DNA of 39,622 bases, taken from assembly GCA_913044165.1 (NCBI GenBank), contig CAJWMY010000008.1:1-39622 (forward strand). Reading direction: 5' to 3'. Source of the stretch: an uncultured Puniceicoccaceae bacterium (lineage in GTDB: Bacteria > Verrucomicrobiota > Verrucomicrobiia > Opitutales > Coraliomargaritaceae). The notes beneath the pieces are model-generated. The model was not told where the DNA came from and made no database searches. It saw nothing but the letters and a program-made list of their open reading frames with translations. The position numbers and the translations under genes were made by a program. Shown here piece after piece: positions 8,868-38,157 of this stretch (its first letter is position 1; every line of letters begins with the position of its first letter).

Positions 8868-11144
8868 CTAAAACTTGTAATTCATGCCAAGCTCAAAGCT
8901 TCTTCCAGGTAGCGGAGCAGCATTCTTTAAGAATGAAGTATGAGAAAAGCCTAATTCATCAGTTATGTTTTTAGCTTTAATATAAATCTCCGAACTATTT
9001 TCTTCATTTAGAACAAAACCAAGGCGCGCATTCAAAATAGTAAATTCACCAGTCTTGCTCTCATTCGAAGATAAAGCCCTAGATGACTTATTATGTATAG
9101 AATTTAAGTTAAAACGAAAATCTTTATTATTATAATAATAACCTATACCGAATCTCCAGGGTGGAATTCTAGGAAGAACTCTATCATTAGTAGTATCCTT
9201 GGTTGAGATTAAATCGGCAAAGCCTTTAATGTAAGATCTGTCACCTAATTGATATTTATACTCATACTCTAGGCCATATATACGAGCTTCCGAACCATCA
9301 TAATTCCTAATGATGAAAGTTTCGCCATCTCCAACTGTATTTTCGCCACTAGAGTTTTGATAGATAAAATTATCATAATTATTATAATAAGCTGAAAGTT
9401 TTTGGCCAAAATTTCCTCTTTTATTACGTATTGAGATCTCAATACCAATAGATTCCTCATTTTCTAAAGAACTATTTCCTATTTCAAATGCCTCAGTAGC
9501 ATGATGGGCGCCTGAGCTATAAAGCTCTGATGTCTCAGGAATTCTCTCAGAATAATGAAAGTTCCCACTTAGTGAAGTTGAGTCATTTGTACTGAATACA
9601 AAACCAATTGATCCATTTACGGAAGAATCATCTCGGTCGATATTAACATTACCTAATCCATCTCTTGATAGCGCATCATAATCTCTATTGGATATATCGT
9701 ATCTAATGCCACCATTAATTGTTAAATTAGAAGAAATATTCTGTTTTTGAAGTAATCCAATACCAAAACTTTCACTTGAATCATTTTCAATCCTAGGATT
9801 GGTACTCTCAGGAACAGAATTGTTTCCATGATCATTAGCTGAAAGATAGCTTTCATCGCCATCTATTTTCATGTCATAATTTGTATAATTAACACTCAAA
9901 GCTAATAATGAGGCATCTGTTTTCCTTGAGAAAATAAATCTGCTATCAATTCCATCATATAGAAAAACAGCATGGTGGTGGTCATCATGACCATCGTCAT
10001 CATCGTGGCCATCTTCACCATCATCATCATCGTGGCCATCTTCACCATCATCGTCATGGCCATCTTCACCATCGTCATTATCGTGGTCATCGTGGCCATC
10101 GTGATCATCTGATCCACTAGATTCTGAATGAGAATAATCTCCAAAAGTCATCGCATAATTTACATTATCAAAATATCCATCATCAAATTGGTGAAAACCT
10201 TGTATTGAGGTTTTATCCCTTTGAATGGCTACTATTGAACTTTCGTGATTAGGGACTCCATACGTTGAATCATATGTAGAATAACTAACACCAACATAAC
10301 CATCGTCATACAAGTATGAACCACCTACACCAGATGTTTGAGTACTACTTTGGGTATTATCTACACTATTCTTAACAAGTACAGCCCCATTGTCGCCATC
10401 ATGATCGTCGTGGCCATCTTCACCATCATCGTCATCATGATCATCGTGGCCATCTTCACCATCATCGTCATCATGATCATCGTGGCCATGAGAATCTACA
10501 GGTATGAAATCAGGCACATCATAATTTTCAGTACTAAGAGAAGAACCATTTATCTGGAAAATAAAATTACCTAATTGATGGAATAAAATGCCACCTCTCT
10601 GCCAGCCTTCATCCACGCTACAATAGCGAACACTAATCTTATTATCAAAAGATTTGCTAAGATAAGGATTTGGAATAGTATTATTAAACACATTCACAAC
10701 GCCTCCGATTGCATTTGATCCATATAGTAATGCCGAAGAACCTTTTAGCACTTCAATACGATTGATTAATATAGGATCTACTGAAACCGCATGATCCGCC
10801 GATGTAGAAGATAAGTCAAAAGCCCTCAATCCATTTTCCAAAACGCTCACCCTAAACCCACCCAATCCTCGTATAATCGGCCTGTTAGCATTTGGTCCAT
10901 AGAAAGTTTGTGAAATACCAGCTTGATTAGCTAAAGTCTGTGCAATTGTAGTGGAACTTAAATCAGACAATGCAGTCTTTTGAATGACATTAAATGATTG
11001 AGTGCTATTGGTTTCATCAAATAGCAAAGGAGATGATTGTACTACTAAATCATCTAGCTCGTAATTTGGCAAATGCTCACCATCTGCCCATAAGTTGCCT
11101 ATTGGCAAAAATAAAATAAATAATAAAAAGTTTTTTGTGTTCAT
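8868..11144 (-). CDS. TonB-dependent receptor, ZnuD-like, with His/Asp-rich repeats
   Basis: A 758-residue outer-membrane receptor. A signal peptide spans residues 1-20 (ending NLWA). A TonB-box-like ELDDLVVQSS follows, then a plug domain (about 45-160) with IIRGLGGFRVSVLENGLR and IEVLKGSSALLYGSNAIGGV, then a barrel ending in Phe (LGMNYKF). The plug resembles ZnuD-type zinc receptors. Two extracellular-type insertions, residues about 219-253 and 346-391, consist almost only of His, Asp, Glu and Gly in repeats such as DDHDDDDGEDGH, as expected for divalent-metal capture; ZnuD also has His-rich loops. A small Cys/His exported protein is encoded just upstream. Zinc is the best guess; another divalent metal is possible. 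Confidence 0.88.
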   Translation of the reverse strand: MNTKNFLLFILFLPIGNLWADGEHLPNYELDDLVVQSSPLLFDETNSTQSFNVIQKTALSDLSSTTIAQTLANQAGISQTFYGPNANRPIIRGLGGFRVSVLENGLRAFDLSSTSADHAVSVDPILINRIEVLKGSSALLYGSNAIGGVVNVFNNTIPNPYLSKSFDNKISVRYCSVDEGWQRGGILFHQLGNFIFQINGSSLSTENYDVPDFIPVDSHGHDDHDDDDGEDGHDDHDDDDGEDGHDDHDGDNGAVLVKNSVDNTQSSTQTSGVGGSYLYDDGYVGVSYSTYDSTYGVPNHESSIVAIQRDKTSIQGFHQFDDGYFDNVNYAMTFGDYSHSESSGSDDHDGHDDHDNDDGEDGHDDDGEDGHDDDDGEDGHDDDDGHDDHHHAVFLYDGIDSRFIFSRKTDASLLALSVNYTNYDMKIDGDESYLSANDHGNNSVPESTNPRIENDSSESFGIGLLQKQNISSNLTINGGIRYDISNRDYDALSRDGLGNVNIDRDDSSVNGSIGFVFSTNDSTSLSGNFHYSERIPETSELYSSGAHHATEAFEIGNSSLENEESIGIEISIRNKRGNFGQKLSAYYNNYDNFIYQNSSGENTVGDGETFIIRNYDGSEARIYGLEYEYKYQLGDRSYIKGFADLISTKDTTNDRVLPRIPPWRFGIGYYYNNKDFRFNLNSIHNKSSRALSSNESKTGEFTILNARLGFVLNEENSSEIYIKAKNITDELGFSHTSFLKNAAPLPGRSFELGMNYKF
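9972..10109 (-). repeat. In-frame His/Asp repeat tract, second cluster
   Basis: A degenerate in-frame repeat encoding about residues 346-391 of the ZnuD-like receptor, with units of the DDDDGEDGH and DDGEDGH kind and a final DDHHH. Unit length varies, consistent with slippage between units. It lies in an external-loop position. It makes long antisense reading frames that are not genes. Confidence 0.85.
10386..10490 (-). repeat. In-frame His/Asp repeat tract, first cluster
   Basis: About two copies of a 36-base unit encoding DDHDDDDGEDGH, plus a partial copy, at residues about 219-253 of the ZnuD-like receptor. The two copies are nearly identical in DNA, which indicates recent duplication and possible length variation between strains. 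Confidence 0.85.
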
Positions 11145-15053: not shown

Positions 15054-15076
15054 TTGAAAATGAGTCTCATTAACAA
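15054..15076 (+). promoter_or_regulatory. Fur-box-like operator of the heme operon
   Basis: The 13-base core AATGAGTCTCATT (15059-15071) is a perfect palindrome around one centre base. It extends with two mismatches on each side to 15054-15076. It matches 10 of 13 bases of the Fur-box core AATGATAATCATT. It abuts the start codon of the heme receptor. A TTGACT at 15014-15019 could be the -35, with a weak -10 near 15038-15044. Iron-dependent repression by Fur is the likely meaning. Confidence 0.6.
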
Positions 15077-17338: not shown

Positions 17339-17989
17339 ATGAAAACTACAAAATACACATACACAATAATAAGCATATTCATTGGCCTAGCTTTTGCTAC
17401 CCAATCTTATGCATTAACACTAAATCCAATCGCAGATTCGGATGTCTACCATTACTATGGAAGCGTCGATTCTACTCCTGAAACATTAGGAGTTTCATAT
17501 GCGGCCTTTGGTGAAAGCGACCATAGTCAAACTTCAGCTATTAAGTTTGATTTATCTGGCGTATCACCAGGCTCATTTGCAACTGCTACCCTAAGACTCA
17601 ATGCATTACCATTCACTCCTGGATTCGCTAGTTTCTCAACTGGTGCAGGAATGAATATTGGCATGTCTGCAAATGAATGGGTAAGTTCAGGCTTAACAAC
17701 CGCCACTGCAGATGATGCTGTAGTGATGGGTGCACCACTACAGGTGTTTAGCGAAAGTGGCTGGGTAAATTATGATATTACCTCCATTGTAAATGCTCAG
17801 GCTTCAAACCCATTTGCAAACAATGGATTGATATTGTCTGCATTACCTGGCGCAAGCTACCAGTTCGCTTCTAGCGAAACTGATTTCGCCCCACAGCTTG
17901 TGCTTGCAGCCATTCCTGAACCATCTACATATGCCTTAATTTTAGGATTATGTAGCTTAGGTTTTCTTGCCTTAAAAAGAAAAAAGTGA
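17339..17989 (+). CDS. PEP-CTERM-anchored DNRLRE-type protein, candidate surface heme-capture protein
   Basis: A 216-residue exported protein. The signal peptide covers about residues 1-25 (ending SYA). One DNRLRE/CBM96-like beta-sandwich follows, with IKFDLSGV near 68-75, ATLRLNALP and WVNYDITSIV. A PEP-CTERM tail closes it: IPEPSTYALILGL, a hydrophobic helix, then KRKK. Exosortase normally processes such tails; none is encoded here. Residues 34-66 are rich in Tyr and His (DSDVYHYYG, TLGVSY, SDHSQTS) and recur in the next protein. It lies 18 bases after the heme receptor gene, ahead of the heme transporter genes. The domain call is moderate. A heme-binding role is inferred only from operon position and these residues. 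Confidence 0.8.
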   Translation: MKTTKYTYTIISIFIGLAFATQSYALTLNPIADSDVYHYYGSVDSTPETLGVSYAAFGESDHSQTSAIKFDLSGVSPGSFATATLRLNALPFTPGFASFSTGAGMNIGMSANEWVSSGLTTATADDAVVMGAPLQVFSESGWVNYDITSIVNAQASNPFANNGLILSALPGASYQFASSETDFAPQLVLAAIPEPSTYALILGLCSLGFLALKRKK

Positions 17990-18015
17990 TCTACTAGGTC
18001 ATTAATGAACATAAT

Positions 18016-18048
18016 TGCTTCCTGTCTAAATAATATAGGCAGGAAGCA
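18016..18048 (+). terminator. Intercistronic hairpin, possible attenuator in the heme operon
   Basis: The arms TGCTTCCTG-t-CTA and TAG-g-CAGGAAGCA form a strong stem with one mismatch and a 7-base loop. TATTTTCT follows, which is only moderately T-rich. It lies between the PEP-CTERM gene and the second DNRLRE gene. It is more likely a partial terminator or an mRNA-stabilising end than a full stop, since the downstream genes have no other clear promoter. Confidence 0.65.
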
Positions 18049-18060
18049 TATTTTCTAAAT

Positions 18061-18921
18061 ATGAAGATTTTAAAACTATCCTTATTTATAATTATTTCTT
18101 TAAACGTTAATTCAGAAACTATCCTATATCCAACTTTTGATTCAGACGTTTATCACTTCTTAGGTAGAACAACCTCTACCACTAACACACTTGGAGTTTC
18201 TTACGGAGTATCTACATATAATGGTTATCCATCAGACCATAGCCAAACTTCATTAATAGTTTTCGATACAACAAGCTTTACTAACCCAATACAGTCTGCA
18301 TCACTAAGCTTATACAACCTTCCTATTGTACCTGGTGGATATGCATCTTTTAGCCCGGGTGCTATTAATCTTCATGAACAAGGGAAAGCCCACGAAGGAG
18401 CCTCATTTTACGGAGTTTACTATGATATTGTTTTAAGTGATTTTCAACAAGGTGATTTAATTCAAACTTTTCAAGTTACAGATGAAGGGTCATGGATTGA
18501 TTTAGATGTAACTGATACAGTAAATAAATGGATATCTAGCCCTGAAAATAATCATGGATTTCTTTTAGTGCCTCTATCCGATAATCCGTTCACTGAAGAA
18601 GAAAATGATTCTGTTGGAGCAAATTTTGCATCTACTGAAAACCTAGAAAATATCCCTCAGCTAAGCATTACGAATCAACCACTAGAACTCATATGCCAAA
18701 GTTATAATAAAATTCAGCATGCTAATATTTCCCCTAATGAAAATATATCGTACCAATGGTCAATAGATTTACAAAATTGGAATAATGAAACAGATGTTGA
18801 ATCTGATATACTTTTAAGCTTTGAAGAAAATGAAAACGAGAGTTCTAACTCCACAGAAATTACTGTAATCTTTGATGGAAACATTCCTAATGCACTTTAT
18901 TATCGTGCTGTTATTGATTAA
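18061..18921 (+). CDS. DNRLRE-type exported protein without anchor, paralogue of the PEP-CTERM protein
   Basis: A 286-residue protein with a signal peptide (about residues 1-18, ending VNS). The N-terminal domain matches the previous protein in order: DSDVYHFLG, TLGVSYG, SDHSQTS, then IVFDTTSF, ASLSLYNLP, SWIDLDVTDTVNKW and HGFLLVPL. After about residue 200 it diverges: no PEP-CTERM tail, but a segment with YQWSIDLQNW that resembles a C-terminal domain common in verrucomicrobial secreted proteins, ending YYRAVID. It lies 71 bases after its paralogue, and hmuT starts 3 bases past its stop, implying translational linkage to heme uptake. If it binds heme, it would be a soluble partner. Function is unproven. 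Confidence 0.75.
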   Translation: MKILKLSLFIIISLNVNSETILYPTFDSDVYHFLGRTTSTTNTLGVSYGVSTYNGYPSDHSQTSLIVFDTTSFTNPIQSASLSLYNLPIVPGGYASFSPGAINLHEQGKAHEGASFYGVYYDIVLSDFQQGDLIQTFQVTDEGSWIDLDVTDTVNKWISSPENNHGFLLVPLSDNPFTEEENDSVGANFASTENLENIPQLSITNQPLELICQSYNKIQHANISPNENISYQWSIDLQNWNNETDVESDILLSFEENENESSNSTEITVIFDGNIPNALYYRAVID

Positions 18922-18924
18922 TTT

Positions 18925-19773
18925 ATGTTCAGCCTTAAAACATTTAAATATATCTTATTAATAGCCTGCTTGATTTTCCAATCTTATGCATTTGCAGATA
19001 GATTAATTACAATTGGTTCAACATCTACTGAGCTTGTTTTTGCTCTAGGTTTAGGAGAAAAAGTTGTTGCTGTTGACCAATCAAGCTTGAACCCCCCTGA
19101 GGCTAGAAAGCTTCCCCAGGTAGGATATATTCGAATGATATCTCCCGAAGGAATACTTGCTCTAGATCCAACACATATAATAACTGGCAATGAAATAGGC
19201 CCTAAAGCAACACTTGATAAATTAAAAAAAACAGGGATTCCAATAACAATAGTCCAAACACCCAATTCAATAGATGAATTGATCGATCAAATTAAATTCC
19301 TTTCAAAAGATCTTAAAGTAGCTGAGAAAGGAGAAAAGATTACACTAAATATCCTAAACGATTATCAAAAGATTCAATTTCCTGAAAAAGCTGCTAAAGT
19401 AATTTTTCTAATGCATCACCCTTTTACTCAAACAGGATTAAATGCAGCTGGAAAACATACAAAAGCAGATAAAATCATTAAACTTGCCGGTGGTGAAAAC
19501 CTTATTAAAGAGCATAGTGGATATAGAAGTATATCAAAAGAAACTTTATTTGAAATTAATCCAGAAATTATCCTTGTTGGCGTTCCAGAAAATCTTACAA
19601 CTAACAAAGAGGAAATAATGAAAATATTATTCGAAGATAGAATTTTCGATAAAGTCCCTGCTATTAAAAATAATAATGTTTTACTACTACCACTTTCTAA
19701 AACACTTAGCTTTAGCCACACAATAACTGAAACAATCAGCAAGCTAACCGAAGCTTTTTCAAGCGTTCCGTGA
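18925..19773 (+). CDS. hmuT: Periplasmic heme-binding protein of heme ABC importer
   Basis: A 282-residue substrate-binding protein of the cobalamin/heme/siderophore class (fold with two lobes and a helical backbone). A signal peptide ends near residue 24 (QSYAFA). The N-lobe begins RLITIGSTSTELVFALGLG. The segment KLPQVGYIRMISPEGILAL corresponds to the region holding the heme-ligand Tyr in ShuT/HmuT, here Tyr68. It would hand heme to HmuUV. The start is 3 bases after the preceding stop. The family is strong; the heme specificity is supported by Tyr68 and the neighbours. Confidence 0.9.
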   Translation: MFSLKTFKYILLIACLIFQSYAFADRLITIGSTSTELVFALGLGEKVVAVDQSSLNPPEARKLPQVGYIRMISPEGILALDPTHIITGNEIGPKATLDKLKKTGIPITIVQTPNSIDELIDQIKFLSKDLKVAEKGEKITLNILNDYQKIQFPEKAAKVIFLMHHPFTQTGLNAAGKHTKADKIIKLAGGENLIKEHSGYRSISKETLFEINPEIILVGVPENLTTNKEEIMKILFEDRIFDKVPAIKNNNVLLLPLSKTLSFSHTITETISKLTEAFSSVP

Positions 19774-19788
19774 ATTTAAGCCCATAAA

Positions 19789-20808
19789 ATGAATAAAAAG
19801 ATATTTATATTAACTTCAGTAATTTTATTAGTATCTTTTTATTTAAACATTTCTTTTGGGGATGCTTCCATAGGAATAAATAAAATTCTACTTTCTCTCT
19901 TTGGAATTGATTTTAACATCCCTGAAGTATCAAAATTCATATTCTACGAGATCAGATTACCTCGGGTAATTATAGCATTTATAGTAGGAAGTATACTTGC
20001 TCTATCCGGCACAATCATGCAGGCAATATTCAGAAATCCACTTGCAGATCCAGGGCTAATAGGCGTATCATCTGGTGGTGCAGTAGGAGCAATTTTATTT
20101 ATAATCTCAGCCAATTACCTAAATGCCCATACCTTTATGTGGCTTCAAGATTCTGGAATGATTATATTCCCTATGATAGGAGCGATGGCTACCACTTTTC
20201 TTGTATATAAATTATCTCAAAGTAACGGAAAAACAAATGTGGCGGTAATGCTTCTTACTGGATTAGCTATCAATGCAATAGCAGGCACGATTATAGGTTA
20301 TGCAACATATTTCTCTACCGATGATCAGCTAAGAAGTTTTACCTTTTGGTCCCTAGGCTCATTAGGAAGAGCTGATTGGGGTCTCGTTCAAGTTTTATTT
20401 CCTCTTACAGTAATTGCTATAATTTATAAAATATCATTGAGAAGAGAATTAAATCTAATGCTATTAGGCGAAAGAGAGGCTCTCTATTTAGGTGTAAATA
20501 TTGAAAAAACAAAAAGAAATTTAATTATAGTAACATCAAGCATTGTAGGTCTTACTGTATCCATTTGTGGCATGATTGGCTTTATCGGATTGATAACCCC
20601 TCATATATGTAGGCTAATATTTGGCCCCAATCACAATCTGTTATTACCATTATCTGGTATGGTAGGAGGTATTATTCTTGTAAATGCAGATCTTGTATCA
20701 AGAATATCGATTCCATATTCAGAGCTACCTATAGGGATTGTTACCTCTTTAATAGGAGCGCCATTTTTCCTTTATCTTATAATAAAAACCAAAAAAGTAC
20801 TTTTTTAA
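19789..20808 (+). CDS. hmuU: Heme ABC importer permease (FecCD family)
   Basis: A 339-residue inner-membrane permease with about ten hydrophobic helices. It has FecCD landmarks: RLPRVIIAFIVGSILALSG, then MQAIFRNPLADPGLIGVSSG, then FWSLGSLGRADWG, and near the end the cytoplasmic LITPHICRLIFGPNH loop that couples to the ATPase. It would work as a dimer with HmuV. Length matches BtuC/HmuU (about 330). It starts 16 bases after hmuT, and hmuV follows after 3 bases. Confidence 0.93.
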   Translation: MNKKIFILTSVILLVSFYLNISFGDASIGINKILLSLFGIDFNIPEVSKFIFYEIRLPRVIIAFIVGSILALSGTIMQAIFRNPLADPGLIGVSSGGAVGAILFIISANYLNAHTFMWLQDSGMIIFPMIGAMATTFLVYKLSQSNGKTNVAVMLLTGLAINAIAGTIIGYATYFSTDDQLRSFTFWSLGSLGRADWGLVQVLFPLTVIAIIYKISLRRELNLMLLGEREALYLGVNIEKTKRNLIIVTSSIVGLTVSICGMIGFIGLITPHICRLIFGPNHNLLLPLSGMVGGIILVNADLVSRISIPYSELPIGIVTSLIGAPFFLYLIIKTKKVLF

Positions 20809-20811
20809 TAT

Positions 20812-21597
20812 ATGTTAGAAGTTGATGACCTAACAGTTAAATTTGGCAAAATAAAAATATTAGATCAAATCTCCTTCAAATTAAATGCTGGAGAATTTAC
20901 AAGTATAGTAGGCCCAAACGCTAGCGGGAAATCTACACTAATAAAAGCAATTAACGACGAAGTGAAATTATCAGGAGGTAAAATCATATTAAATGGTAGG
21001 GACATAAATGAGTACAGAAAGAACCCTCAGTCTATATCTAAATGGAGAGCTGTTCTCCCTCAAAAATCTAGTTTAAATTTTAATTTCAAGGTTCTAGATG
21101 TTATTAAAATGGGAAGAAACCCATATTATAATATAAAGTCTGAAAAAGAAAACGAATCTATAGCCATTAAATACTTAGAAGAATTAGAGCTATCTAATTT
21201 AAAAGAAAGGTCATTTTTGTATTTATCAGGAGGAGAACAACAGCGAGTTCAATTTGCTAGGATATTAGCACAAATGCATGAATCTTTTATCAGTGAAAAT
21301 CCTAGCGTGATATTTCTTGATGAGCCAACTTCTAATCTAGACATTAAGCACCAAATACAAATACTTAAGATACTTAAAAAACTTAAAGGCAACAATCTCT
21401 CTGTAGTTATTGTTATTCACGATCTTGAACAAGCATTAAATTTCTCTGATAAAATCATACTACTTAATAATGGAAGACTGGTTTCCTGCGGTAACCCTAA
21501 AACTGTTCTGTCAAATAAGCTAATCAAAAATACTTTTGGCATAGATAATGAATGGCTAGCCGATGGAGATAAGAAATTCCTTAAAATCAATTACTAA
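20812..21597 (+). CDS. hmuV: Heme ABC importer ATP-binding protein
   Basis: A 261-residue cytoplasmic ATPase. Walker A is GPNASGKST (residues 34-42), the signature is LSGGEQQR, Walker B is VIFLDEP with the D-loop TSNLD, and the switch His is in VVIVIHDLEQAL. Length and order are those of HmuV/FecE proteins. It powers heme import with HmuU. Confidence 0.93.
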   Translation: MLEVDDLTVKFGKIKILDQISFKLNAGEFTSIVGPNASGKSTLIKAINDEVKLSGGKIILNGRDINEYRKNPQSISKWRAVLPQKSSLNFNFKVLDVIKMGRNPYYNIKSEKENESIAIKYLEELELSNLKERSFLYLSGGEQQRVQFARILAQMHESFISENPSVIFLDEPTSNLDIKHQIQILKILKKLKGNNLSVVIVIHDLEQALNFSDKIILLNNGRLVSCGNPKTVLSNKLIKNTFGIDNEWLADGDKKFLKINY

Positions 21598-21606
21598 ATT
21601 ATTATA

Positions 21607-22416
21607 ATGAAAAATATACTTAAAGAAGCAAATGAGGAATATTTATCCCTATTATCATCTTTCAAATCAGTTGAAATTGCTACGATCAATAAAAATGGCA
21701 CCCCAGAAGTTAGCTACTCTCCAGCTATAGTAGATAAAGAAAAAAATTTTTATATTTATGTAAGCGAACTATCCAAACATACAGAAAACTTTTTAAACTC
21801 TAAAAAAGCTTCTGTAATGTTGATAGAAGACAATGCAATAGCCGACTCAGTATTCGCTAGAAAAAGAATAACATTTGATTGCGAGTCATCAGAAATTGAA
21901 CGCTCTAACAATGATTGGGGTAATCTTTTCGATAGGTTTGAAGAAAAGTTTGGATCTTTAATGAAACAGCTTAAGAAAATGACTGACTTCCATTTAATAA
22001 AACTATCTCCCCTAAACGGAAGGTTAGTTTATGGATTTGGTAAGGCATTCGATATTAAAGGGGAAAACTTGGATGAAGTTACTCACTTGAAGGGATTTGG
22101 GAATAAAGGACACAAAATGGAAAAATCAACGGATGAAGATGAAAAACTTAGTGATGATGATATAAAACGAATTATCAACCACATGAATGAGGACCATGAA
22201 GATTCCATAATCGATTACCTAAGATATTACGGAAAATTAGAAAATTGTACCTCGGCTAGTATAGTCAAAATGGATAGTCTCTCTATGGAAATAGAATACT
22301 CTAACGAAGTTGATCATAATAAAATTACACAAATTAAATTTGATCATGAAATATCGAGTGCCCACGATGCCCATATGACAATGGTTAAAATGGCTAAAAC
22401 TGCCAAATTAAATTAA
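21607..22416 (+). CDS. hugZ: HugZ/HutZ-type heme oxygenase (split-barrel fold)
   Basis: A 269-residue cytoplasmic protein. Residues about 8-150 form a flavin-reductase-like split barrel (VEIATINKNGTPEVSYSPAI, then FYIYVSELSKHTENF). Residues about 185-265 form a DUF2470 domain (IINHMNEDHEDSIIDYLRYY). This is the arrangement of HugZ and HutZ, which degrade imported heme to release iron. The C-terminal HDAHMTMVKMAK segment holds His residues of the kind that ligate heme in HugZ. Position as the last gene of the heme operon fits. Its stop codon overlaps the stop of the convergent protease gene. Confidence 0.88.
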   Translation: MKNILKEANEEYLSLLSSFKSVEIATINKNGTPEVSYSPAIVDKEKNFYIYVSELSKHTENFLNSKKASVMLIEDNAIADSVFARKRITFDCESSEIERSNNDWGNLFDRFEEKFGSLMKQLKKMTDFHLIKLSPLNGRLVYGFGKAFDIKGENLDEVTHLKGFGNKGHKMEKSTDEDEKLSDDDIKRIINHMNEDHEDSIIDYLRYYGKLENCTSASIVKMDSLSMEIEYSNEVDHNKITQIKFDHEISSAHDAHMTMVKMAKTAKLN

Positions 22417-34603: not shown

Positions 34604-34987
<384 letters not shown>

Positions 34988-36277
34988 TTAATCTAAATTA
35001 TAAGCTTTTTCGCCATGCTCTGACTCATCAAGCCCAATAGTTTCTTCTTCTTCTGTAACACGTAATCCAGTCAAAGCCTTACATACAGCTATAATTATAA
35101 TAGAAGCTATAGCAGACCAGGCAACAACTACAAGAACACCTATTAATTGCACTTTAAATTGAGCCAACATCGAATAACCATCTGAAGCATTTCCACCAAA
35201 CTGAGATCCAGCTAAAAATGCAACTAATAAGGTGCCAAGGATTCCCCCTACTCCATGGACAGCAAAAACATCCAGGGAATCATCGATTTTTAATACCCCT
35301 TTTACTACTCCGCACATATAATAACATACAACACCTGCAGAAAATCCAATTATAACAGCCCCAATAGGACCCACACTTCCAGAAGCAGGCGTTATTGTAG
35401 CTAATCCAGCGATCGTTCCGGTTACAATCCCAACGAGTCCTGGCTTTCCATTCTTCTTCCATTCAATAGCCATCCAAGTTAAACTTGCAACAGATGCTGA
35501 GATATGAGTCACAAGTAAAGACATAGCAGCTTGTCCATCAGCTGCAAGTTGACTACCCGCATTAAAGCCAAACCATCCAACCCAAAGCATACAAGCACCA
35601 ATCATAACCATTGCAGGTTGGTGAGGCACAGATAAACGATTAGGAAATCCATTTCTAGGCAATAATGCTTTAGCTAAAATTAAAGCGGAAATACCTGCGG
35701 TCGCATGCACAACTAGTCCACCGGCAAAATCGATTACACCCATCTGAGAAAGCCAACCTCCACCCCAAACCCAGTGTGTTACTGGTGCGTAAACTAAAAA
35801 TAGCCATAAACCAGTAAAAAGCAAAACTGATGTAAACTTCATACGCTCAACAAAAGCGCCAATTATCAAAGCCGGAGTAATTATAGCAAAGGTCATTTGA
35901 AAACCAACAAATAATAATTCCGGAATTGATCCACTAACGGAATCTTGAGTAATTCCACTGAGAAAAGCTCGAGATAAATCACCTATATATGCATTGCCTT
36001 CAGAAAAGGCTAAACTATAAAGGCAAAAAACCCAAAGAACAGACGCAAGACAAGCAATAACTACATTGTGCATTAAAACAGACAAATAGTTCTTGGATCT
36101 AACCAAACCGCCATAAAATAAGGCGAGTCCGGGTAAGGTCATAAATAAGACCAAGGCGGTAGCTGTAATAATCCATGCAGTATCGCCAGAATTAATATTA
36201 GCACCCTCAGAACAAAAGAGAGAGGATGGTATGGCTAATATAAACAATAAGGTAATTTTAGTTAAGTTGGTAAACAT
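34988..36277 (-). CDS. amt: Ammonium transporter (Amt family), second copy
   Basis: A 429-residue channel with a signal peptide (FILAIPSSLFCSEG) and about 11 helices. The family core is LALFYGGLVRSKN, then FVERMKF, then APVTHWVWGGGWL with the first channel His, then MLWVGWFGFNAGS, and FAVHGVGGILGTL with the second channel His. An in-frame ATG at 36343 would add 22 residues before the signal peptide and overlap the upstream terminator; 36277 is preferred. It is paired with a PII gene. It differs clearly from the other Amt here, so the duplication is old. No sigma-54 promoter is seen upstream. Confidence 0.94.
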   Translation of the reverse strand: MFTNLTKITLLFILAIPSSLFCSEGANINSGDTAWIITATALVLFMTLPGLALFYGGLVRSKNYLSVLMHNVVIACLASVLWVFCLYSLAFSEGNAYIGDLSRAFLSGITQDSVSGSIPELLFVGFQMTFAIITPALIIGAFVERMKFTSVLLFTGLWLFLVYAPVTHWVWGGGWLSQMGVIDFAGGLVVHATAGISALILAKALLPRNGFPNRLSVPHQPAMVMIGACMLWVGWFGFNAGSQLAADGQAAMSLLVTHISASVASLTWMAIEWKKNGKPGLVGIVTGTIAGLATITPASGSVGPIGAVIIGFSAGVVCYYMCGVVKGVLKIDDSLDVFAVHGVGGILGTLLVAFLAGSQFGGNASDGYSMLAQFKVQLIGVLVVVAWSAIASIIIIAVCKALTGLRVTEEEETIGLDESEHGEKAYNLD

Positions 36278-36341
36278 GAAACGAATAAATTTAGAGCAAC
36301 TTAATATTTCAAGAGAATTTTTTTTGATAATTTTAAAAAAC

Positions 36342-36377
36342 AAAAAAAGGCAGCCTCTTTCTAAAAGAGACCGCCTT
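36342..36377 (-). terminator. Terminator between the two amt-PII pairs
   Basis: The arms 36347-36360 and 36364-36377 pair at 12 of 14 positions (AAGGC...CCTCTTT with AAAGAG...GCCTT) and are followed on the - strand by a long T-run. It begins 44 bases past the first PII stop and ends transcription before the second amt gene, at least in part. Confidence 0.85.
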
Positions 36378-36420
36378 CCTGTTTACCCTTAACTAAGTAA
36401 TTATTTGTAACACTAGGTTA

Positions 36421-36777
<357 letters not shown>

Positions 36778-36786
36778 TTAATAAAA

Positions 36787-38157
36787 TTAGGAAGTATATG
36801 CAGTTTGACCATGCTCAGCCAAATCAAGTCCTTCAGCTTCCTCTTCAGGTGACACTCGCACTCCCATAGTAGCTTTTATTATTGAGAATACAATATAAGC
36901 GAAGATAAAGGCTGCAAGAGACACGGAAATGGTACCGATAAATTGAGTAAATAAATTGGCGCCACCGAATATACCAACTGCAAGTGTTCCCCATATTCCA
37001 CACACTCCATGAACAGAGATAGCCCCAACAGGGTCATCAATTTTAATAGAGTCAAAGAAAATTATGGAAGCAACAACGATAATACCAGCAATAGCACCGA
37101 CAATAACTGCATCCCAAGGACCCATAGAATCAGCGCCTGCAGTTATACCAACTAGGCCAGCAAGGATACCATTGAGTGCCATTGAAAGATCTGGCTTCTT
37201 TAGCCAAACCCATGAAGTTATTATTGCAGCAAGACTGCCTGCAACACCAGCTAGTGCGGTTGTAGTGAAAACAAGACCTAGTGGACCAGGATTAGCTGAA
37301 AGCACTGAGCCTCCATTAAAACCAAACCAACCTAGAAATAGCAAAAATACACCAATAGTTGCTAAAGGAAGACTAGATCCTGGAATAGGCTTAATCTTAC
37401 CATCAACATATTTACCTGATCTAGGCCCCAGAATCATAACACATGCAAGTGCAGCAAAACCACCAAAAGCGTGTACTACTGAAGAACCAGCAAAATCATA
37501 AAAACCATCAGTTAGGTTACCTAACCATCCGCCTCCCCAATGCCAAGAACCGATCACTGGATAAGCCACCCCAACTAGGAGTGTTACGAATATCATGAAT
37601 GGGAGTAATTTAACTCTTTCCGCTACAGCACCAGATACAATTGTAGCACCAGTTGCCGCAAACATTGCTTGGAAAATAAAATCACCATATCCAGTCATAG
37701 CCAGACCAACTCCGCCATAAGCGAAAGTATCATCTACATTGCCTGCTCCAAGAGGAGATCCAAATGAGAGCCAATTTTCTATTAATGACCATTCACCGCA
37801 CGGATAATGTGTATTAAAACCAAGTAATGCATATGTAAAAATACCCATAGATATAATAAATGTATTCTTAAATAGAATATTTACTGTATTCTTAGATTGA
37901 GTTAATCCACATTCTAGAGTTGCAAAGCCAAGGTGCATTAAAAACACTAAAGCTGCAGCAATAACGGTCCACAACATACTAGTTGTGAAAAAATCAAAGG
38001 CGTAGGCACTTTCACCTTGTTCCTCTAATAGGGCAATGTAATCCTCATCGCCTGATGCGAGAGGATCTAAAAGAACCTCTGCTCCTAAATTGGCGGAAAA
38101 ACAAAAAATTGTTAATCCACTAAATAATAATGTTAAAAAGATGTTTTTGATCTTCAT
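36787..38157 (-). CDS. amt: Ammonium transporter (Amt family), first copy
   Basis: A 456-residue channel with a signal peptide (about residues 1-26, ending SANLGA), an acidic N-terminal periplasmic stretch (about 28-50) and about 11 helices. The core motifs are ATLECGLTQSKNTVNIL, GAVAERVKLLPF, GSWHWGGGWLGNL with the first channel His, FLGWFGFNGGS, and ISVHGVCGIWGTL with the second channel His. The longer N-terminus and ECGLTQSKN place it in a different Amt subgroup from the second copy. A perfect sigma-54 promoter lies 48-62 bases upstream of the ATG, so it should be induced on nitrogen limitation by an NtrC-type activator. Confidence 0.94.
   Translation of the reverse strand: MKIKNIFLTLLFSGLTIFCFSANLGAEVLLDPLASGDEDYIALLEEQGESAYAFDFFTTSMLWTVIAAALVFLMHLGFATLECGLTQSKNTVNILFKNTFIISMGIFTYALLGFNTHYPCGEWSLIENWLSFGSPLGAGNVDDTFAYGGVGLAMTGYGDFIFQAMFAATGATIVSGAVAERVKLLPFMIFVTLLVGVAYPVIGSWHWGGGWLGNLTDGFYDFAGSSVVHAFGGFAALACVMILGPRSGKYVDGKIKPIPGSSLPLATIGVFLLFLGWFGFNGGSVLSANPGPLGLVFTTTALAGVAGSLAAIITSWVWLKKPDLSMALNGILAGLVGITAGADSMGPWDAVIVGAIAGIIVVASIIFFDSIKIDDPVGAISVHGVCGIWGTLAVGIFGGANLFTQFIGTISVSLAAFIFAYIVFSIIKATMGVRVSPEEEAEGLDLAEHGQTAYTS

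Follow-up and report, generated by a model that had tools for sequence, protein, structure and literature searches.

Two exported DNRLRE-domain proteins of a verrucomicrobial heme-uptake operon as candidate hemophore-like partners of a TonB-dependent receptor

Two related exported proteins of the DNRLRE type, encoded within a heme-uptake cassette of an uncultured Puniceicoccaceae bacterium, are best explained as dedicated extracytoplasmic, hemophore-like partners of the heme TonB-dependent receptor whose gene precedes theirs, a reading to which we give a probability of about one half. That the receptor-linked DNRLRE protein is a functional partner of the receptor is considered highly probable, and binding of heme through Tyr37 and His62 (protein 1 numbering is used throughout) is predicted from residue conservation at even odds. 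Exported proteins that capture heme for a TonB receptor are a known kind; new here would be the fold, the placing of an invariant triad where sugar was once bound, and anchoring by PEP-CTERM. No connection between DNRLRE and heme was found in the searched literature (the sole co-mention was unrelated), nor was any described hemophore for Verrucomicrobiota. To our knowledge, glycan binding is the one function known for the DNRLRE domain. If correct, the reading would add a fold for heme capture and a way of anchoring that have not been described before, and would tie PEP-CTERM/exosortase anchoring to nutrient capture; the single invariant Tyr, His and Asp of the receptor-linked subfamily make this a specific and cheap prediction.

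The DNA studied, hereafter the window, is the whole 39,622-nt contig CAJWMY010000008.1 of assembly GCA_913044165.1 (1.26 Mb in 78 contigs, 87% complete). The first-pass annotation of this sequence had placed two related exported proteins between a heme TonB receptor and hmuTUV-hugZ, with hmuT starting 3 bases past the second gene; both open reading frames are present, and the second ends at 18921 with hmuT starting at 18925 (Table 1). The top NCBIfam match of the window receptor is TIGR01786 (hemoglobin/transferrin/lactoferrin receptors) with 205.7 bits, below the cut-off of 323.75, which is counted against the hemophore-like reading. The best NCBIfam matches of hmuT are BtuF/IsdE, below their cut-offs, and the HugZ/HutZ models are likewise below cut-off for the oxygenase (TIGR04109, 172 bits vs 240).

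Table 1. Features of the heme-uptake cassette, in window coordinates
Feature	Coordinates	Strand	Remarks
Fur-box-like palindrome GAAAATGAGTCTCATTAAC, core AATGAGTCTCATT at 15059-15071	15056..15074	.	Immediately before the receptor start
Heme/hemoglobin-type TonB-dependent receptor, 747 aa	15077..17320	+	Plug and barrel domains; NCBIfam TIGR01786
Receptor-linked DNRLRE protein 1, 216 aa	17339..17989	+	Signal peptide, DNRLRE/CBM96 at about residues 26-189, PEP-CTERM tail
Protein 1 stretch from invariant Asp35 and Tyr37 to invariant His62	17441..17524	+	
Terminator-like hairpin, 13 bp stem	18016..18048	+	Between the two DNRLRE genes
Receptor-linked DNRLRE protein 2, 286 aa	18061..18921	+	Signal peptide, DNRLRE at about residues 20-205
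hmuT-like heme ABC transporter binding protein	18925..19773	+	Peripla_BP_2, 102 bits
hmuU-like permease	19789..20808	+	From sequence and order; 70% identity with the orthologue in L025
hmuV-like ATPase	20812..21597	+	From sequence and order; 59% identity with the orthologue
HugZ/HutZ-type heme oxygenase (PNPOx_N + DUF2470)	21607..22416	+	TIGR04109 and Pfam domains

Both proteins were assigned to the DNRLRE family by curated thresholds: scores for NF033679 were 52 bits (protein 1) and 49.5 bits (protein 2) for a cut-off of 34, and scores for its Pfam equivalent CBM96 (PF24517) were 36.6 and 34.2 bits for a cut-off of 26. Each is a homologue of the other (E 8e-20, 40% identity), and both contain the segments DSDVYH(Y/F), TLGVSY and SDHSQTS, as first reported; the DVYH and DHSQTS segments are no part of the general DNRLRE consensus, being absent from 26 DNRLRE proteins of other contexts. 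The Pfam and NCBIfam hits of the two proteins included no match to the HmuY, HasA, HphA or NEAT families, searches of PDB sequences gave chance-level or TGF-beta-propeptide matches only, and scanning of viral contigs with both proteins and the profile gave no relative. AlphaFold models built on four-sequence alignments had a mean pLDDT of 49.9 and 45.5, values too low to judge a binding pocket.

A PEP-CTERM signal had been claimed for one protein of the pair, and it was recovered in protein 1 (23.8 bits, cut-off 20.7), while protein 2 ends in another domain, without PEP-CTERM. Exosortase genes were found in the genomes searched, with two matches in the bacterium's own, so that protein 1 has both motif and exosortase and is probably held at the surface by this anchor. 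Protein 2, which has no anchor motif, may be soluble or receptor-bound; that no surface route is known for it is counted against the hemophore-like reading. Identity of its C-terminal domain with that of proteins from a second family of the class (f29, see below) was considered and gained no support (hhalign probability 0.2%).

The cassette was found again in a second uncultured Puniceicoccaceae bacterium of the same genus (CAJWRZ010000002.1, locus L016), with all seven genes in unchanged order. These seven, at about 35-70% identity, are the only genes common to the two contigs (39.6 kb vs most of 43.6 kb); as the flanking genes are unrelated, the DNRLRE pair travels with the heme genes. In the tree, the window proteins and their orthologues group together (support 91/88), and the duplication predates the split of the two species. 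The palindrome core precedes the receptor in L016 as well as in the window. The window site has 15/19 consensus matches to a Fur box, a score equalled in 1/300 shuffles; exact copies of the core number two in the bacterium's own genome, the other one lying inside a sulfatase gene, and one in the relative, that before the receptor. A SOUL-family heme-binding protein gene (L016:2050-2583, minus strand) is divergent from the relative's receptor and shares its Fur-like site; it is not present at the equivalent place of the window. The hairpin between the DNRLRE genes is strong (z = -6.2), and L016 has a hairpin of unrelated sequence at the equivalent place. Its terminator-like character, directly after the first DNRLRE gene, suggests that protein 1 may be made in excess of the downstream products. 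In L016, HugZ appears as two adjacent open reading frames (9344-9868, the PNPOx part, and 9877-10161, a DUF2470-like part), which may be a real split or a sequencing error.

Across the order, 81 of 373 genomes encode DNRLRE domains, and the standalone DNRLRE genes of 16 inspected loci, several of them with PEP-CTERM, adjoin other genes. A narrow profile made from the four cassette proteins matched nothing in the order sample beyond the two cassette genomes, and two heme loci of the same order (L021 and L023) have no DNRLRE gene. Elsewhere, L062:468-4628 encodes several PEP-CTERM proteins close together, three of them DNRLRE-like, away from heme genes. The first-pass annotation had held that homologues lying mostly away from heme genes would speak against a heme role; this describes the broad DNRLRE family of the order and does not describe the receptor-linked subfamily.

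The linkage recurs outside the order's two cassettes. In a phylum-wide sample, four strong profile matches were obtained, all in f29, and each of these DNRLRE genes directly follows a TonB receptor. The family was then covered by a profile search of 155 genomes, with flanks of 1.5 kb read on each side. All 14 strong hits (141-253 bits) lie directly downstream of the receptor, separated from it by about 2-12 bp in the cases with a clear start. The next-ranked hit (G705; 48 bits, E 2e-12) lies divergently to the receptor and has a PEP-CTERM-like tail, and a receptor of this kind is missing from the flanks of all 11 hits that score 45 bits or less. Searching from the receptor side, a DNRLRE gene was found downstream of 13 of the 13 best receptors. 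It is also present beside one paralogous receptor (G773), and in one genus (g270, 4 receptors) a PEP-CTERM-like version lies divergently upstream, the g270 proteins tested matching the linked profile and not Pfam CBM96, so that their membership rests on a profile which the G705 protein had joined. The gene is absent beside three inspected receptor paralogues and ten distant receptors (about 35-39% identity), and these, with the heme loci that have no DNRLRE gene, are counted against the hemophore-like reading.

The proposed survey for this domain beside heme receptors in other Verrucomicrobiota thus came out positive, for the subfamily only: two families of the class have it linked to the same type of heme receptor, in three gene arrangements. 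Receptor and DNRLRE identities correlate (r = 0.83 over 20 loci, 0/2000 permutations), as is expected of a co-inherited pair, so that the correlation by itself does not show function; the linkage partly reflects shared ancestry of one cassette.

Several other features of these loci were recorded. The distant receptors (L124-L133, e.g. L127:169-963, minus strand) are mostly accompanied, in the DNRLRE position, by an exported protein, about 264 aa long, that matches nothing in Pfam and has the motifs HAEWDIFTEA ... SGNIYSFQ ... TFFRL; it is possibly a second, unrelated partner family. Genes of DUF6607 (PF20311), of which no mention was found in the searched literature, adjoin the receptor type in most f29 loci (L074-L077, L106-L133), and a gene that looks DUF6607-like (L022:12727-13926) lies near a receptor and ExbB/ExbD-like genes. 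None of the f29 loci tested had a Fur-like site upstream.

The cargo of the system bears on a first alternative, an improbable one, by which Asp35, Tyr37 and His62 would form a site for non-heme metal or another ligand, such as a transferrin-like ferric-iron site, with the receptor taking up iron or a chelate. All three residue types are classical ligands of ferric iron, TIGR01786 also covers transferrin and lactoferrin receptors, and the f29 loci that were read had no hmuTUV next to the receptor. Against this, the operon of both window and L016 carries hmuTUV and a HugZ-type heme oxygenase, which makes heme the likeliest cargo, and the f29 receptors are best matched by heme/hemoglobin models: the two tested scored 340 and 359 bits for TIGR01786, above cut-off, and one of them also passes TIGR01785.

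Within an alignment of 22 receptor-linked proteins, which are not independent of one another, eight residues are invariant in 22/22: Asp35, Tyr37, His62, Phe70, Asn161, Gly163, Pro185 and Leu187. The last five are usual in unlinked DNRLRE proteins too, and the first three are not; Tyr37 and His62 are the only invariant Tyr and His of the linked set. Among 26 unlinked proteins, whose alignment in the loop of Asp35, Tyr37 and His62 is uncertain, 7 have Asp35, 5 have Tyr37 and 2 have His62, and none has Tyr37 together with His62. A pocket of Tyr37, His38, Tyr54 and His62 had been suggested for the pair; its Tyr37 and His62 stand, and the four-residue site was rejected, His38 and Tyr54 each being retained in just 4/22.

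Such conservation has also been weighed against a second, unlikely alternative, that the proteins are hemoprotein-binding co-receptors which present a hemoprotein to the receptor, Tyr37 and His62 being a protein-contact or structural site. The model for this is the lipoprotein HpuA. As the co-receptor of HpuB it offers a precedent, since it binds hemoglobin itself (PMC4703857) and is likewise a partner whose gene adjoins that of a hemoglobin-type receptor; TIGR01786 includes hemoglobin receptors; and protein 2 evolves fast (35% identity vs 69% in the comparison of the window with its relative), as binding partners often do. The window proteins differ from HpuA in their domain, in their invariant Tyr and His, and in having no lipobox, the mark of surface lipoprotein co-receptors: no Cys occurs in the signal region of either. 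That one Tyr, one His and one Asp stay strictly invariant where the proteins otherwise diverge also suits a small-ligand site better than a protein-contact surface.

The place of these residues in the domain was examined by alignment to 7VBO, the CBM96 module TM6-N4 of Dp0100, which holds alginate in a shallow groove with Lys10, Lys22, Lys25, Lys27, Lys31, Arg36 and Tyr159, with Lys10, Ser33 and Asp34 forming one wall and Arg36 essential for alginate binding (PMC9971899). The window proteins belong to the same domain family by profile (as does PDB 8WAB), and their groove region can be aligned to that of 7VBO, which was reached via an unlinked relative; the alignment was anchored through this relative and repeated jointly. 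The correspondences obtained were Val36=Val7, Tyr37=Glu8, residue 39=Lys10, Gly51=Lys25, Ser53=Lys27, His62=Asp34, Gln64=Arg36 and Phe70=Phe42. The alginate residues Lys10, Lys25, Lys27 and Arg36 are thus replaced by Tyr39, Gly51, Ser53 and Gln64, so that the pair does not classify as alginate binders. By this alignment, the alginate chemistry is gone from the linked subfamily, whose invariant Tyr and His, together with the invariant Asp, fall in the groove region; its proteins, unlike the CBM96 alginate modules, are exported beside a heme receptor and are not modules of a lyase.

The same comparison weighs on a third alternative, that the proteins are carbohydrate-binding or surface-anchoring modules holding polysaccharide, placed next to heme genes by the descent of one operon. 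The characterised CBM96 member does bind alginate (PMC9971899), and in the order, DNRLRE proteins, of which many carry PEP-CTERM, are encoded apart from heme genes; however, Lys10, Lys25, Lys27 and Arg36 are replaced in the linked subfamily, whose association with the receptor persists across three arrangements and follows the cassette. This explanation is regarded as having little probability.

Under the hemophore-like reading, the sugar-binding groove of the DNRLRE/CBM96 beta-sandwich would have been re-equipped for heme. Heme, free or released from hemoproteins, would be held by Tyr37 as iron ligand, with His62 close by as second ligand or hydrogen-bond partner, and with Asp35. From there it would pass to the receptor of the adjacent gene, with HmuTUV then importing it and HugZ opening it. 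Protein 1 would act from its PEP-CTERM/exosortase anchor at the surface, possibly overproduced through the hairpin, and protein 2 in soluble or receptor-bound form. Tyr/His heme ligation occurs in known hemophores. The wider proposal, that the DNRLRE/CBM96 fold was converted to a heme-capture family of Verrucomicrobiota with its Tyr37/His62 (Asp35) site in the old sugar groove, is tentative and falls somewhat short of even odds, whether the proteins are used singly, as an anchored and free pair, or as an exosortase-anchored hemophore.

Two traits of hemophores are found here, namely export of a protein whose gene accompanies that of a heme TonB receptor, and conserved candidate ligands (Tyr37 and His62). 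The first is common to HmuY, HasA, HphA/hemophilin and IsdX, of which HmuY and HphA are all-beta, and all of these use Tyr and/or His as heme ligands (PMC8560813). Unlike them, the window pair combines a DNRLRE beta-sandwich with a PEP-CTERM anchor, and its heme binding is predicted.

Ferrochelatase was not found in the bacterium's own genome and is present in 5/6 relatives of the genus; heme auxotrophy cannot be claimed from this, since in an assembly of 87% completeness the absence may be a gap. About 4 kb upstream of the cassette, on the opposite strand, the window encodes a second TonB receptor (8868-11144, minus strand) with small exported proteins nearby, and at 34604-38157 (minus strand) two tandem pairs of apparent P-II regulator and ammonium transporter genes.
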